From: Burkholderiaceae bacterium
GTDB lineage: Bacteria; Pseudomonadota; Gammaproteobacteria; Burkholderiales; Burkholderiaceae_A
Direction: 5' to 3'
Assembly: GCA_018882785.1 (NCBI GenBank)
Contig: VERI01000001.1
Span: forward strand, 124,001-188,000
Length of the DNA: 64,000 nt
The position numbers and the translations under genes are program-made. This document shows, in pieces, positions 39,584-44,637 of this stretch (positions within the stretch are counted from its first letter, which is position 1; the number at the start of each line of letters is the position of its first letter). The notes below the pieces were generated by a model that was not told the origin of the DNA, searched no databases, and was given only the letters and a program-made list of their open reading frames with translations.

Positions 39584-40604
39584 CCTGGGTGAATTTGAAT
39601 TTATTGATCAGTTCCTAAAGGCGCAGGCAGCGCGCGGCCAGCCGTTTTATCGGCATCCGCAGGCGCTGGGCATTGGTGATGATGCGGCGTTACTGCCGCC
39701 GCTTGCCGCCAATGAGCAGGTCGCGATGGCCAGCGATATGTTGATCGAAGGCCGACATTATCTTTCTCAGGTGGATCCGCGTGCCCTCGGCCATAAAGTG
39801 CTGGCCGTGAATCTCTCTGACATTGCAGCCATGGGGGCACGTCCGCTGGGCTTTACCCTATCGGCAGGCCTGCGCGATATTCGGCCCGACTGGATGGAAC
39901 GGTTTCTCGATGGCCTGCTGTCTTTGGCCCGAGACGCCGCATGCCCGCTCATTGGCGGGGATACAACCGCGGTGCCGGCGGATGCACCGGAAGTATTTTC
40001 TGTCGCCATACTGGGCGCGGTCCCGCTCGGAGAGGCGCTGCGACGCGATGGGCTGCAGCCGGAGGACGATCTCTGGATCTCCGGCCATCTCGGTGATGCT
40101 GCCTATGCTGTTTCGCGCAACGCGGAGGACCCCAAACTGAACTGGCCGCAGCCGCGCATCGAATTGGGAATGCGGCTGCGCGGCATTGCCTCGGCCGCCA
40201 TTGATATCTCTGATGGCCTACAGTCAGAGATCATGCATTTGTGTCAGGGCGCACGGAATCGTGATGTTGCTCCGAAGACCTTGAAGGCTGTATTGAATTG
40301 GGAGTCCTTACCGATGGGCCCGAGCGTGACGGCATCGATAGCGTCGACAGCGTTGTCGCAGGCAGATGCGATCTGTATCGCAATTACGGGTGGCGATGAA
40401 TATGAGCTGTTATTCGGCGCACCGCAGCGTGAACGCGCTGCGATTCGGTCAATCGGTGCGGCACTCGGGCTTGCCCTAACGCGAATCGGGCATGTCGAGT
40501 CGGGCCGTGATGGACCGCAGATTGACTGGGTTAACACGGCGGGGCAGCCGATACCCGCGCAATGGCAGCAAAGGATTTCAGGTGGCGGATTCCGGCACTT
40601 CTAA
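39576..40604 (+). CDS. thiL: Thiamine-monophosphate kinase
   Basis: Phosphorylates thiamine monophosphate to the active coenzyme thiamine diphosphate. The 342 residues belong to the PurM/ThiL ATP-binding fold: GIGDDAALL, NLSDIAAMGARPLG, LIGGDTTAVP and DISDGLQSE carry the metal- and ATP-binding aspartates. It overlaps nusB and also overlaps the start of pgpA by 23 bases. Confidence 0.94.
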   Translation: MASLGEFEFIDQFLKAQAARGQPFYRHPQALGIGDDAALLPPLAANEQVAMASDMLIEGRHYLSQVDPRALGHKVLAVNLSDIAAMGARPLGFTLSAGLRDIRPDWMERFLDGLLSLARDAACPLIGGDTTAVPADAPEVFSVAILGAVPLGEALRRDGLQPEDDLWISGHLGDAAYAVSRNAEDPKLNWPQPRIELGMRLRGIASAAIDISDGLQSEIMHLCQGARNRDVAPKTLKAVLNWESLPMGPSVTASIASTALSQADAICIAITGGDEYELLFGAPQRERAAIRSIGAALGLALTRIGHVESGRDGPQIDWVNTAGQPIPAQWQQRISGGGFRHF

Positions 40605-41196
40605 CCAGCCAGCCGCCCTGAGCGAGGCCACGGCCACGGCCACGGCCACGGCCACGGCCACGGCCCATGTGGGCCTACTGTCCCATCCTGCGCATCTCAT
40701 TTCATTTGGATTTGGCTGCGGACTCTTTCCGTATGCACCCGGCACGATTGCGACCTTGTGGGCCTGGGTGATTTTCTTGATGGTCGATCCGTTCATGACC
40801 GATTTTTCATGGGCGTTATGCATCGGCGGAGGCTGTGTTCTGGGCGCCTGGGCCTGCACGATTACTGGAAAAGCCTTGGGCCGTGTGGATGACGGGTCGA
40901 TGGTGTGGGATGAAATTATCGCCTTCTGGCTTGTGCTGTGGATTTTGCCGAAGGCGAGTGATCCCGCCGGCATTCACGCTATGGGTAACGTACCTGAATG
41001 GCTGATTGAGGCGGTGGGATTTGTCCTCTTTCGATGCTTTGACATTGTGAAGCCTGCTCCGATACGAACGATTGATCGTCTCAGTCGTGATGGCTGGGGT
41101 GTTATGTTGGACGATCTCGCGGCTGCAGCGTACACCTTGCTGACCTGTGCAGTGTTGTTGCGGCTCGCACACCTGGCCGAGGGATGGTGGTGGTGA
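40582..41196 (+). CDS. pgpA: Phosphatidylglycerophosphatase A
   Basis: Inner-membrane phosphatase that makes phosphatidylglycerol. The family blocks SFGFGCGLFPYAPGTIATL, DDGSMVWDEIIAFWL and FRCFDIVKPAPIR are all present. I chose GTG 40582, which follows AAGGA at a proper distance; the product has 204 residues. The N-terminus between residues 16 and 28 is an Ala-Thr repeat encoded by six GCCACG units, absent from normal PgpA. The last bases overlap pncC by 13. Confidence 0.92.
   Translation: MADSGTSNQPAALSEATATATATATATAHVGLLSHPAHLISFGFGCGLFPYAPGTIATLWAWVIFLMVDPFMTDFSWALCIGGGCVLGAWACTITGKALGRVDDGSMVWDEIIAFWLVLWILPKASDPAGIHAMGNVPEWLIEAVGFVLFRCFDIVKPAPIRTIDRLSRDGWGVMLDDLAAAAYTLLTCAVLLRLAHLAEGWWW
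40627..40665 (+). repeat. Hexanucleotide tandem repeat (GCCACG)6 in the pgpA 5' end
   Basis: Six perfect GCCACG units (40627-40662) plus GCC, encoding alternating Ala-Thr just before the first membrane block of PgpA. A hexamer keeps the frame when unit number changes, so slippage would alter N-terminal length rather than switch the gene off. Confidence 0.9.
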
Positions 41197-41744
41197 GCGG
41201 CGTTACTCCTGCTGCCCAGATAGACCGGCAGGCGCTGGTGCATGGGCTTGCGGTGGCATTTGGATTGTTGCGTCTAAAGGGCCGTCTGATGGTGGCGGAG
41301 TCCTGCACCGGCGGACTGGCCAGTCACTGGATTACAGCGATTGCAGGCTCGAGCCGCTGGTTTGACGGTGGCATCGTGAGCTATGCCAACGAGGTCAAAT
41401 CGGGGCTGCTGTCGGTAAAGGACTCGACGCTGCGACACGCGGGCGCCGTTAGCATCGAGACAGCGGTGGAGATGGCCGATGGCGTGCGTCGCCAGCACCG
41501 CCGGATTCTCGCCGGCCCGATCAAGCACGTGCCCGAGCATCTCTTCTCGTTTGCCATCACCGGTATCGCCGGCCCGCAGGGCGGACAGCCGGGCAAGCCC
41601 GTGGGCACGGTCTGCTTTGCCTGGGCGGGGCCCAGTGGGGTGGAAACCGAGCGCCGTTTCTTCACCGGGGACCGGGCTGCGGTTCAGCGCCAGGCCTGTG
41701 CCTGGGCGATCGCTGGACTGTTTGCCCGGCTCTGCAGGGTCTAG
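41184..41744 (+). CDS. pncC: Nicotinamide-nucleotide amidohydrolase PncC (CinA C-terminal domain family)
   Basis: Deamidates nicotinamide mononucleotide to nicotinate mononucleotide in NAD recycling. The 186 residues are a stand-alone CinA C-terminal domain: AESCTGGLASHWITAIAGSS, VSYANEVKSGLL and FAITGIAGPQGG are diagnostic. A stretch before the last motif (HRRILAGPIKHVPEHL) is longer than in the E. coli protein. ATG 41184 overlaps pgpA. A strong inverted repeat follows the stop. Confidence 0.92.
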   Translation: MVVVSGVTPAAQIDRQALVHGLAVAFGLLRLKGRLMVAESCTGGLASHWITAIAGSSRWFDGGIVSYANEVKSGLLSVKDSTLRHAGAVSIETAVEMADGVRRQHRRILAGPIKHVPEHLFSFAITGIAGPQGGQPGKPVGTVCFAWAGPSGVETERRFFTGDRAAVQRQACAWAIAGLFARLCRV

Positions 41745-41752
41745 GTCGTTCT

Positions 41753-41797
41753 GGGGATGGTCTCGGACGGGGCGCCTGCCTAGAATGAGACCACCCC
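41753..41797 (+). terminator. Inverted repeat downstream of pncC, adjacent to the recA -35
   Basis: GGGGATGGTCTC (41753-41764) pairs with GAGACCACCCC (41787-41797) to make a ten-pair stem with one internal mismatch or bulge and a 22-base loop. There is no clear T-run (CTTGT follows), so termination efficiency is unsure. It directly abuts the recA -35, so it may also insulate or influence the recA promoter. Confidence 0.4.
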
Positions 41798-41826
41798 TTG
41801 TAACCTGGTTTTATATACAGTAATAT
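41798..41826 (+). promoter_or_regulatory. recA promoter
   Basis: TTGTAA (-35, 41798-41803), a spacer of exactly 17 bases and TAATAT (-10, 41821-41826) form the best sigma-70 promoter in the window. The spacer contains the LexA box. The leader of about 50 bases holds GGGCG-ACT-CGCCC (41843-41855) and an AAGGA Shine-Dalgarno. Confidence 0.75.
41805..41820 (+). promoter_or_regulatory. LexA (SOS) box of recA
   Basis: CTGGTTTTATATACAG matches the CTGT-N8-ACAG consensus of gamma- and betaproteobacterial LexA with one mismatch in the left half. It fills the spacer between the -35 and -10, where bound LexA would block RNA polymerase. Confidence 0.75.
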
Positions 41827-41882
41827 TTTCCCATCACCCTTCGGGCGACTCGCCCCTACCACCACGCCAAAGGATCCATTCC

Positions 41883-42941
41883 ATGCAAGAAAAACAAGAC
41901 GCCAAAACCCGCGCTGAAAAGGCCAAGGCCCTTCAGGCCGCCCTGTCCCAGATCGAAAAACAATTCGGCAAGGGCTCCATCATGCGAATGGGCGAAAACG
42001 AGGTCGCCCCTGATATCCAGGTCGTGTCCACTGGATCGCTCGGACTTGATCTGGCGCTTGGGGTAGGCGGACTGCCTCGGGGCCGCATCGTCGAGATCTA
42101 CGGTCCTGAGTCGTCGGGCAAGACCACCCTGACCCTTCAGGTGATTGCAGAGATGCAAAAGATCGGCGGCACATGCGCCTTCGTCGATGCAGAGCATGCC
42201 CTCGATACGCAATACGCCCAAAAGCTTGGCGTTACCCTCTCTGAGTTACTCATCTCTCAGCCGGATACAGGCGAGCAGGCCCTAGAAATCGTCGATGCCC
42301 TGGTCAGGTCGGGCTCGGTTGATCTGATTGTGGTGGACTCGGTTGCCGCCCTCACGCCTAAGGCAGAGATCGAGGGAGAAATGGGCGATTCATTGCCGGG
42401 ACTGCAGGCCCGTCTAATGTCGCAGGCCCTGCGTAAGCTAACGGCCAATATCAATCGCACCAATACGCTGGTGATCTTCATCAACCAGATTCGTATGAAA
42501 ATCGGTGTCATGTTTGGCAACCCAGAGACCACCACGGGCGGCAATGCGCTTAAGTTTTATTCCTCCGTTCGGCTGGATATTCGCCGGGTCGGATCGATCA
42601 AAAAAGGTGACGAGGTCACTGGCTCCGAGACCAAGGTGAAAGTGGTCAAGAACAAAGTTGCGCCTCCCTTTAAAGCGGCCTGCTTCGATATTCTGTATGG
42701 CGAGGGAATCTCTCGCGAGGGCGAGATCATTGATCTTGGCTCAGACGCAGAGATCATCGAAAAGTCCGGCGCCTGGTATAGCTATAACGGAGAACGCATT
42801 GGCCAGGGCAAGGACAATGCCCGCGATTTCTTGCGTCAGAACTCGGAGATCGCCTTTGAGATCGAAAACAAACTCCGCGAGAAGTTCGGAGTCACGGCCC
42901 GTCCCGCAGGCGAGACGCAAGCTGTCGCAGAGCAAGACTGA
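41883..42941 (+). CDS. recA: Recombinase RecA
   Basis: DNA strand-exchange ATPase and co-protease for LexA. The 352 residues contain Walker A GPESSGKT at 74-81 and the usual RecA core and C-terminal domain. An AAGGA Shine-Dalgarno precedes ATG 41883. It is the first gene after an SOS-type promoter and is followed by recX. Confidence 0.99.
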
Positions 42942-42958
42942 ACCACTTTCTTCAGCCG

Positions 42959-42997
42959 CCCTTCGGGCGAGGGTGATGTCTGCCCTTGCCCGAAGGG
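42959..42997 (+). promoter_or_regulatory. Perfect inverted repeat enclosing the recX start
   Basis: CCCTTCGGGC (42959-42968) and GCCCGAAGGG (42988-42997) are a perfect 10-bp inverted repeat whose 19-base loop contains both candidate recX start codons (GTG 42973, ATG 42976). A shorter competing hairpin, CGCCC-TTC-GGGCG, overlaps the left arm. In E. coli a hairpin between recA and recX lowers recX expression; this could do the same at the level of translation. Confidence 0.55.
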
Positions 42998-43386
42998 AGC
43001 ACTCCCGTTACGAGCTCGAGCAGAGGTTTCTCAGCCGAGCCGAGAGCGAGCAGTCTCTGGCCGAGGTGCTCGATCTTTTAGAGCAGCAGGGACTGCTCTC
43101 CGATATTCGGTTTGCGGAGTCGCTGGCCCGGGTCCGAGGTGCTCGCCAGGGGCTGCGCCGAATCCGATATGAGCTTGCGCAAAAGGGCGTCTCGGAGACT
43201 GATGCCGCCTTGGCAATTGATCAATTGACCAAGACCGAATTTAAGCGCCTTGAAGACGTCTGGCGTAAACGATTTGGAGTCCCGCCCGAGAGCCTTGAGC
43301 AAAAGGCCCGCCAGCAACGCTTTTTGCAACAACGTGGCTTCGCACCCGAGATGATTCACCGTTTCCTGCGTGGCGTGACAGGCTAA
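42976..43386 (+). CDS. recX: Regulatory protein RecX
   Basis: Small inhibitor of RecA filaments and ATPase. From ATG 42976 it has 136 residues of the three-helix-repeat RecX family (ARREHSRYELEQRF, DIRFAESLARVRGARQGLRRI, RQQRFLQQRGF). The start is uncertain: GTG 42973 is adjacent, and conserved residues seem to extend a few codons upstream, but the frame there lacks a start until deep in recA. The gap to recA is 34 bases and lies in the stem-loop described separately. Confidence 0.88.
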   Translation: MSALARREHSRYELEQRFLSRAESEQSLAEVLDLLEQQGLLSDIRFAESLARVRGARQGLRRIRYELAQKGVSETDAALAIDQLTKTEFKRLEDVWRKRFGVPPESLEQKARQQRFLQQRGFAPEMIHRFLRGVTG

Positions 43387-43470
43387 CCGGAGCGGGCTGA
43401 GCCCCTGAGCTGACGCGGCTCACGCGGGGCCGCATGCTAAACTGGCCCTCAAAAAACGGGAGGCTGGTGC

Positions 43471-44637
43471 ATGAAAATTCACGAATATCAGGGCAAGGAA
43501 ATCTTGCGCAAGTACGGTGTTGCCGTGCCCCGCGGGACACCTTGTTTCTCTGTCGACGAGGCCGTGAAGGCCGCCCAGGCATTGGGCGGTTCGGTCTGGG
43601 TGGTCAAGGCGCAGATCCACGCCGGTGGCCGCGGCAAGGGGGGCGGTGTCAAGGTTGCCAAGTCCCTCGACGAGGTCAAGACCCACGCATCCAATATCCT
43701 GGGTATGCAGTTGGTCACCCATCAAACAGGGGCCTCTGGACAGAAGGTCCGTCGCCTGCTGATCGAAGAGGGTGCGGATATCAAAAAAGAACTCTATGTC
43801 GCGGTGGTGACCGATCGTGTCAGCCAGAAGGTCTGTGTCATGGGATCAAGCGAGGGCGGCATGGATATCGAAGAGGTCGCCGCCACGCATCCCGAGAAAA
43901 TTCATAAGGTCTTTGTGGATCCTCTGACTGGATTCACCGATGCTGATGCCGATGGACTCGCGGCAAAGATTGGGGTTCCATCAGGCTCGATCAGCCAGGC
44001 CCGCGCAGTGCTCAAGGGCCTGTATCAGGCATTCTGGGAGACCGATGCAGCTTTGGCGGAGATCAATCCCTTGATTCTTACCGGCGATGGCCGTGTGATT
44101 GCGCTTGATGCCAAGTGGAATTTCGATTCCAACGCACTGTTCCGGCATCCAGAGATCGTTGAGATGCGCGATCTGGACGAGGAAGACCCTGCAGAGATCG
44201 AGGCATCGAAATACGATCTTGCCTACATTCAGCTCGATGGCAATATCGGCTGTCTGGTCAATGGTGCTGGACTTGCGATGGCGACCATGGACACCATCAA
44301 ACTATATGGTGCCGAGCCAGCAAACTTTCTGGATGTAGGCGGTGGCGCCACCACCGAAAAAGTGACCGAGGCCTTCAAGATCATGCTCGGCAATCCAAAG
44401 GTCAAGGCGATTCTGGTCAACATCTTCGGTGGCATCATGCGCTGCGATGTGATTGCCGAGGGCGTGGTCGCCGCTTCACGTGCAGTTGGACTGAAGGTGC
44501 CGCTCGTGGTCCGCATGAAGGGCACCAACGAAGATCTTGGCAAGAAGATTCTTGCCGATTCTGGTCTGCCGATCATCACTGCCGACACGATGGCAGAGGC
44601 CGCACAGCGCGTGGTAGACGCGACTAAAAAAGCTTAA
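43471..44637 (+). CDS. sucC: Succinate-CoA ligase (ADP-forming), beta subunit
   Basis: TCA cycle enzyme subunit that binds ADP/ATP and succinate. The 388 residues begin [17 protein letters not shown] and carry the ATP-grasp domain with [14 protein letters not shown] and the conserved [21 protein letters not shown] lies seven bases before ATG 43471. It is followed by sucD after 19 bases; no sucAB or other TCA genes are adjacent. Confidence 0.98.

Follow-up and report, generated by a model that had tools for sequence, protein, structure and literature searches.

The first codons of recX in this Burkholderiaceae genome also encode a strong RNA stem-loop. The stem lies inside the recX coding region; its pairing is conserved independently of codon choice and exceeds what the RecX protein motif accounts for. 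We propose, with a probability of about 0.5, that it serves as a protective mRNA-decay boundary within the recX open reading frame (ORF), favouring recA over recX. No description of the hairpin element was found in the openly accessible literature, a weak form of evidence given the thin coverage of subscription papers.

Both genes lie on the forward strand of the window, the whole 64,000-nucleotide stretch of DNA that was analysed. recA (41883–42941, 352 amino acids; Pfam RecA, E = 5.8e-143, and RecA_C) ends in a TGA at 42939–42941. The gene downstream of it matches the three-helix RecX domains (Pfam RecX_HTH1, RecX_HTH2 and RecX_HTH3; NCBIfam recX), and the full ORF that we propose runs from a CTG at 42922 to a TAA at 43384–43386, its first 20 nt shared with the recA tail. 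Farther downstream, the ORFs read as sucC and sucD. Upstream of recA, a LexA-box-like sequence, CTGGTTTTATATACAG, occupies 41805–41820; because relatives carry the canonical form CTGTTTTTATATACAG, recA is probably under SOS control, with a one-base variant of the box in this genome. The recA leader also contains CCCTTCGGGCGA at 41837–41848, an exact copy of the opening 12 nt of the recX stem's left arm; pairing of the recX arm with this leader copy was rejected as a candidate, the copy being present in this genome only and in none of the relatives. Fusion of RecA to RecX by frameshifting was rejected likewise, as an in-frame stop separates the two genes in one congener (L013). Elsewhere in the window, a perfect GGCCAC tandem repeat of 6.7 units (40626–40665), which encodes an Ala-Thr run (ATATATATAT), sits near the start of a PgpA-like forward-strand ORF (40492–41196) and is possibly a length-variable site or a sign that the ORF start is predicted overlong.

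The preliminary description had placed perfect 10-bp arms, CCCTTCGGGC (42959–42968) and GCCCGAAGGG (42988–42997), 19 nt apart at the recA–recX junction. The coordinates and the arms proved correct, but the stem is longer than the repeat: folding gives 17 bp, counting G-U pairs, between a left arm at 42959–42975 and a right arm at 42981–42997, closed by the 5-nt loop ATGTC (42976–42980). The left arm encodes LRAR(V) and the right arm (S)ALARR. The stem-loop folds at −32.8 kcal/mol, which is z = −7.4 relative to dinucleotide-shuffled sequences, and is the sole hairpin above threshold when the 64-kb window is scanned with a simple stem score. The bases that follow it, AGCACTCCCGTTACG, form no U-tract. 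A search of 41500–43600 with Rfam covariance models returned no match at E ≤ 1, so assignment to a known Rfam family was rejected. A dispersed repeat was also rejected as an origin, since the genome contains 16 copies of CCCTTCGGGC yet the hairpin does not recur. A covariance model of the element matched only recX, the reverse strand of recX and, weakly, one coding region in a relative that is pyruvate-kinase-like as judged by eye from its translation.

The location of the stem relative to the recX start determines how it could act. It had been suggested that both possible recX starts lie in the loop, where the stem would hide them. The ATG at 42976 is indeed in the loop and the GTG at 42973 belongs to the stem; RecX homology, however, begins upstream of both. 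The recX frame stays open upstream of the loop, and the NCBIfam recX cut-off of 129 bits is passed only when the upstream codons are included (136 bits with them, 126.3 without), which places the start of RecX homology before the loop ATG and GTG. The alignment to the solved structure of Escherichia coli RecX (3c1d) likewise begins at query residue 7, ahead of the loop methionine. The SLRARA segment (its SLRAR encoded by the left arm) is conserved across 122 genomes from the order, in which canonical starts fall mostly 14–24 codons ahead of a conserved glutamate. Codon −7, which corresponds to the loop position, encodes a helix residue (L, I, V or M in most cases), and a start codon of any kind stands there in only 30 of the 122. 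Three of the six genus genomes (L012, L013 and L014) have no ATG, GTG or TTG at the loop positions, the loop ATG being ATC in each. Codons −19 to −14 show 74% amino-acid conservation, against 77% for the stem codons and 53% for the next 30 codons, and 39% synonymous differences at unchanged residues, a combination indicating that they are translated; the upstream peptide EPLSS..LRAR is conserved. From these alignments, recX almost certainly starts upstream of the stem, so that the hairpin lies within its ORF.

The start codon itself is most likely non-AUG, here the CTG at 42922, about 37 nt before the stem, although the exact codon is inferred. Four relatives (L011, L013, L020 and L025) have no ATG, GTG or TTG anywhere in the upstream recX frame. 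All four carry a CTG between codons −20 and −25, which in L020 and L025 overlaps the recA stop as CTGA. CTG thus appears to be the recX start in L013, L020 and L025. Because CTG is used frequently, finding one at this place is by itself moderate evidence for a start. Upstream of 42922 lies a weak purine stretch, GGCGAG(A) (42910–42915), a putative Shine–Dalgarno sequence read by eye from the sequence, which is GAGG in L010 and L011. According to the account of Hecht et al. 2017 given in PMC12350097, CTG ranks among the stronger non-AUG starts measured in E. coli.

The protein sequence confounds any test of the stem, since the reverse complement of ALARRE codons can read SLRARA, and a partial palindrome can therefore arise without selection on the RNA. 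For this reason we used a codon-preserving randomization in which synonymous codons were re-drawn from each genome's own recA and recX usage. Against this null the pairing is extreme in all six genus members (mean z = −4.36; P from 0 of 1,000 to 0.014), with z of about −4 to −5.5 in five of them. In the sister genus, seven of ten genomes reach P ≤ 0.05, and the mean z over 99 other genomes is −0.80. The stem window has the lowest z of the 83–90 windows along recA–recX in eight of the nine genomes tested. A register-specific test, which asks only for the recX stem's own pairing, places every genus member above z = +3 and the sister genus at an average of +1.35; 90 other genomes of the order that encode the same motif have a mean z of −0.28.

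Conservation of pairing with covariation in relatives, the check on which the idea of a functional stem had been staked, was found in the genus alignment. Pairing is kept in 93.5% of cells, and both partners vary in 4 of the 18 pairs; covariation scores 0.330, compared with 0.143 for shuffled alignments and at most 0.081 when the register is slid. These figures rest on six genus genomes with the region, mostly drafts, whose relatedness means that the covariation counts are not independent and represent few independent events. The clearest case is pair 12–30, which joins the third base of an Ala codon to that of a Leu codon, two sites on which the protein places almost no constraint: it takes the forms GC, GU, AU, CG and UA, so that all four Watson–Crick pairs are seen, and it is Watson–Crick in 8 of 10 sister-genus genomes. 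In L014 the pairs are kept through amino-acid changes, the left arm passing from GCG (Ala) to GTT (Val) and the right arm from GCC (Ala) to ACC (Thr). Codon choice follows the same pattern. Arg 19 is a rare AGR codon in all six genus genomes but in only 2 of 100 genomes elsewhere, and among the 16 genomes of the genus and its sister genus Arg 11 is AGR in 12, against 1 of 92 elsewhere; AGG makes up 4.1% of Arg codons in the window, and these AGR codons sit exactly where the stem needs an A. A ramp of rare codons was rejected as sufficient by itself because it leaves the covariation between wobble positions without explanation. On the mRNA strand the genus wobbles comprise ten G-U and no A-C (six distinct cases), against a background of 152:99, or about 60:40; this asymmetry modestly favours a structure in RNA over one in DNA.

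Two explanations would account for the pairing without a functional RNA. The stem could be a by-product of the near-palindromic helix-1 motif of RecX, which is conserved across the order and has complementary potential in exactly the register of the stem. The codon-preserving nulls reject this, as does the near-zero score of the motif-bearing genomes in the register in which every genus member exceeds +3; we rejected the motif as sole cause and regard a pure by-product as extremely improbable. The motif does explain why a stem could evolve at this site. Alternatively, template switching could correct a quasi-palindrome to a perfect one and so generate covariation without function. Such a process would yield paired changes, including amino-acid changes of the kind seen in L014. 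Yet the same quasi-palindrome is present across the order in imperfect form, and the genus stem retains G-U wobbles rather than exact matches, which makes a mutational origin improbable.

With the covariance model, the element is recovered from each of the six genus genomes that have the region, and five genomes of the sister genus give weak matches; among 300 genomes of the order, matches at E ≤ 1e-4 occur only in the genus. The stem is absent from several of the ten sister-genus genomes with the region and from most of the order, so recX generally does not need it. A subset of L138–L147, from a distant family (f33, genus g35), carries a weaker stem in the same recX register, with z up to 3.1, which possibly originated independently. 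The distance from the recA stop to the stem ranges from about 16 to over 160 nt.

Stem-loops that protect upstream messages are familiar from operon decay, malE–malF being the classical intergenic case. In the mechanism we favour, recA and recX would share one transcript, on which they overlap or abut, and translation of recX would begin just 5′ of the stem at a weak start other than AUG (CTG 42922 here, CTG or TTG in relatives). Poor translation of recX would allow the stem to fold as RNA; once the recX end is cut, the folded stem would stop 3′-to-5′ exonucleases, and the intact recA message would outlast the recX part. The hairpin may additionally slow ribosomes entering recX. The outcome would be much RecA and little of its antagonist RecX.

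A decay boundary is favoured because the stem shares its anatomy with the protective stems of E. coli and because RecX is needed far below RecA. Of 26 such E. coli stems, 17 fall within the ORF of the downstream gene, at a mean distance of 107 ± 56 nt from its start, and they lack a U-tract and show extra conservation at wobble positions (Dar and Sorek 2018, PMC5927463). The recX stem resembles them in its strength, well beyond the background of the window, in the missing U-tract, in its place in the 5′ part of the downstream coding sequence (about 37–75 nt into recX, within the first ~25 codons, and spanned by RecX homology), in the conservation of structure at wobble positions in related genomes, and in that the upstream gene, recA, is the one needed in larger amount. 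It differs from them in showing true covariation; moreover, recA is absent from that paper (PMC5927463), whereas the present stem is at recA–recX.

The absence of a U-tract and the variable spacing from the recA stop also mean that the stem fits neither an intrinsic terminator nor reinitiation with a fixed geometry. The main rival to a decay boundary, which we consider possible but rather unlikely, is that the stem acts chiefly to limit recX translation: a barrier lying about 37 nt past a weak start would slow early elongation or reinitiation from recA and leave mRNA decay unaffected. Weak non-AUG starts occur throughout the family, and in several genomes about 16–19 nt separate the recA stop from the stem, so that the stem begins where the front of a terminating ribosome would be. 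That spacing is not conserved, however (about 73 nt in L013, 48 nt in L014 and more than 160 nt in L022, where the inner stem persists), the ribosome-binding site lies too far upstream for the stem to cover it, and elongating ribosomes usually unwind such stems. The earlier model, in which recX starts at the loop ATG or GTG and the stem hides the start, draws on the GTG and ATG at the top of the stem in this genome and on a GTG nearby in L010 and L011; with the loop start not conserved, with homology and conserved codons extending upstream, and with most of the first helix deleted by initiation at the ATG, it is highly unlikely. The preliminary description also raised the possibility that the structure ends most recA transcripts. 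A terminator or attenuator would be consistent with a strong G+C-rich stem directly after recA and with the partly transcriptional limitation of recX in E. coli (PMC9252578), but the missing U-tract speaks against an intrinsic terminator, the stem is not among the listed terminator-like sites, and we judge this reading very unlikely, although Rho-dependent action is conceivable.

Other recA–recX junctions offer partial parallels to the proposed decay boundary. In E. coli the level of RecX is some 500 times lower than that of RecA (PMC9252578), and recX is kept far below RecA both transcriptionally and translationally, as Pages et al. 2003 are summarized in PMC9252578. Here too recX is downstream of recA; unlike the E. 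coli junction, this one has no intrinsic terminator, and its structure is within recX codons rather than between the genes. In mycobacteria, the 5′ part of recX overlaps the 3′ end of recA by 32–35 bp, and Mycobacterium tuberculosis additionally has a promoter inside recA (PMC3062782). The overlap proposed here, about 20 bp, is similar in kind, but no coding hairpin is described in that account (PMC3062782) and the start here is apparently CTG.

We suggest tentatively, as a wider reading that may well not hold, that a lineage-specific cis-acting RNA element and obligate non-AUG (CTG or TTG) initiation of recX together set the RecA:RecX ratio in this genus, possibly responding to recA ribosome traffic during SOS, as an RNA-level replacement of the E. 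coli recA–recX arrangement. Annotation pipelines that accept only ATG, GTG and TTG would then misplace the recX start in the genus. If the proposal is true, a second lineage would have met the RecA:RecX ratio problem through a hairpin hidden in coding sequence, and its covariation at four-fold-degenerate sites would make it a well-supported comparative case of dual protein and RNA coding in a bacterial operon.
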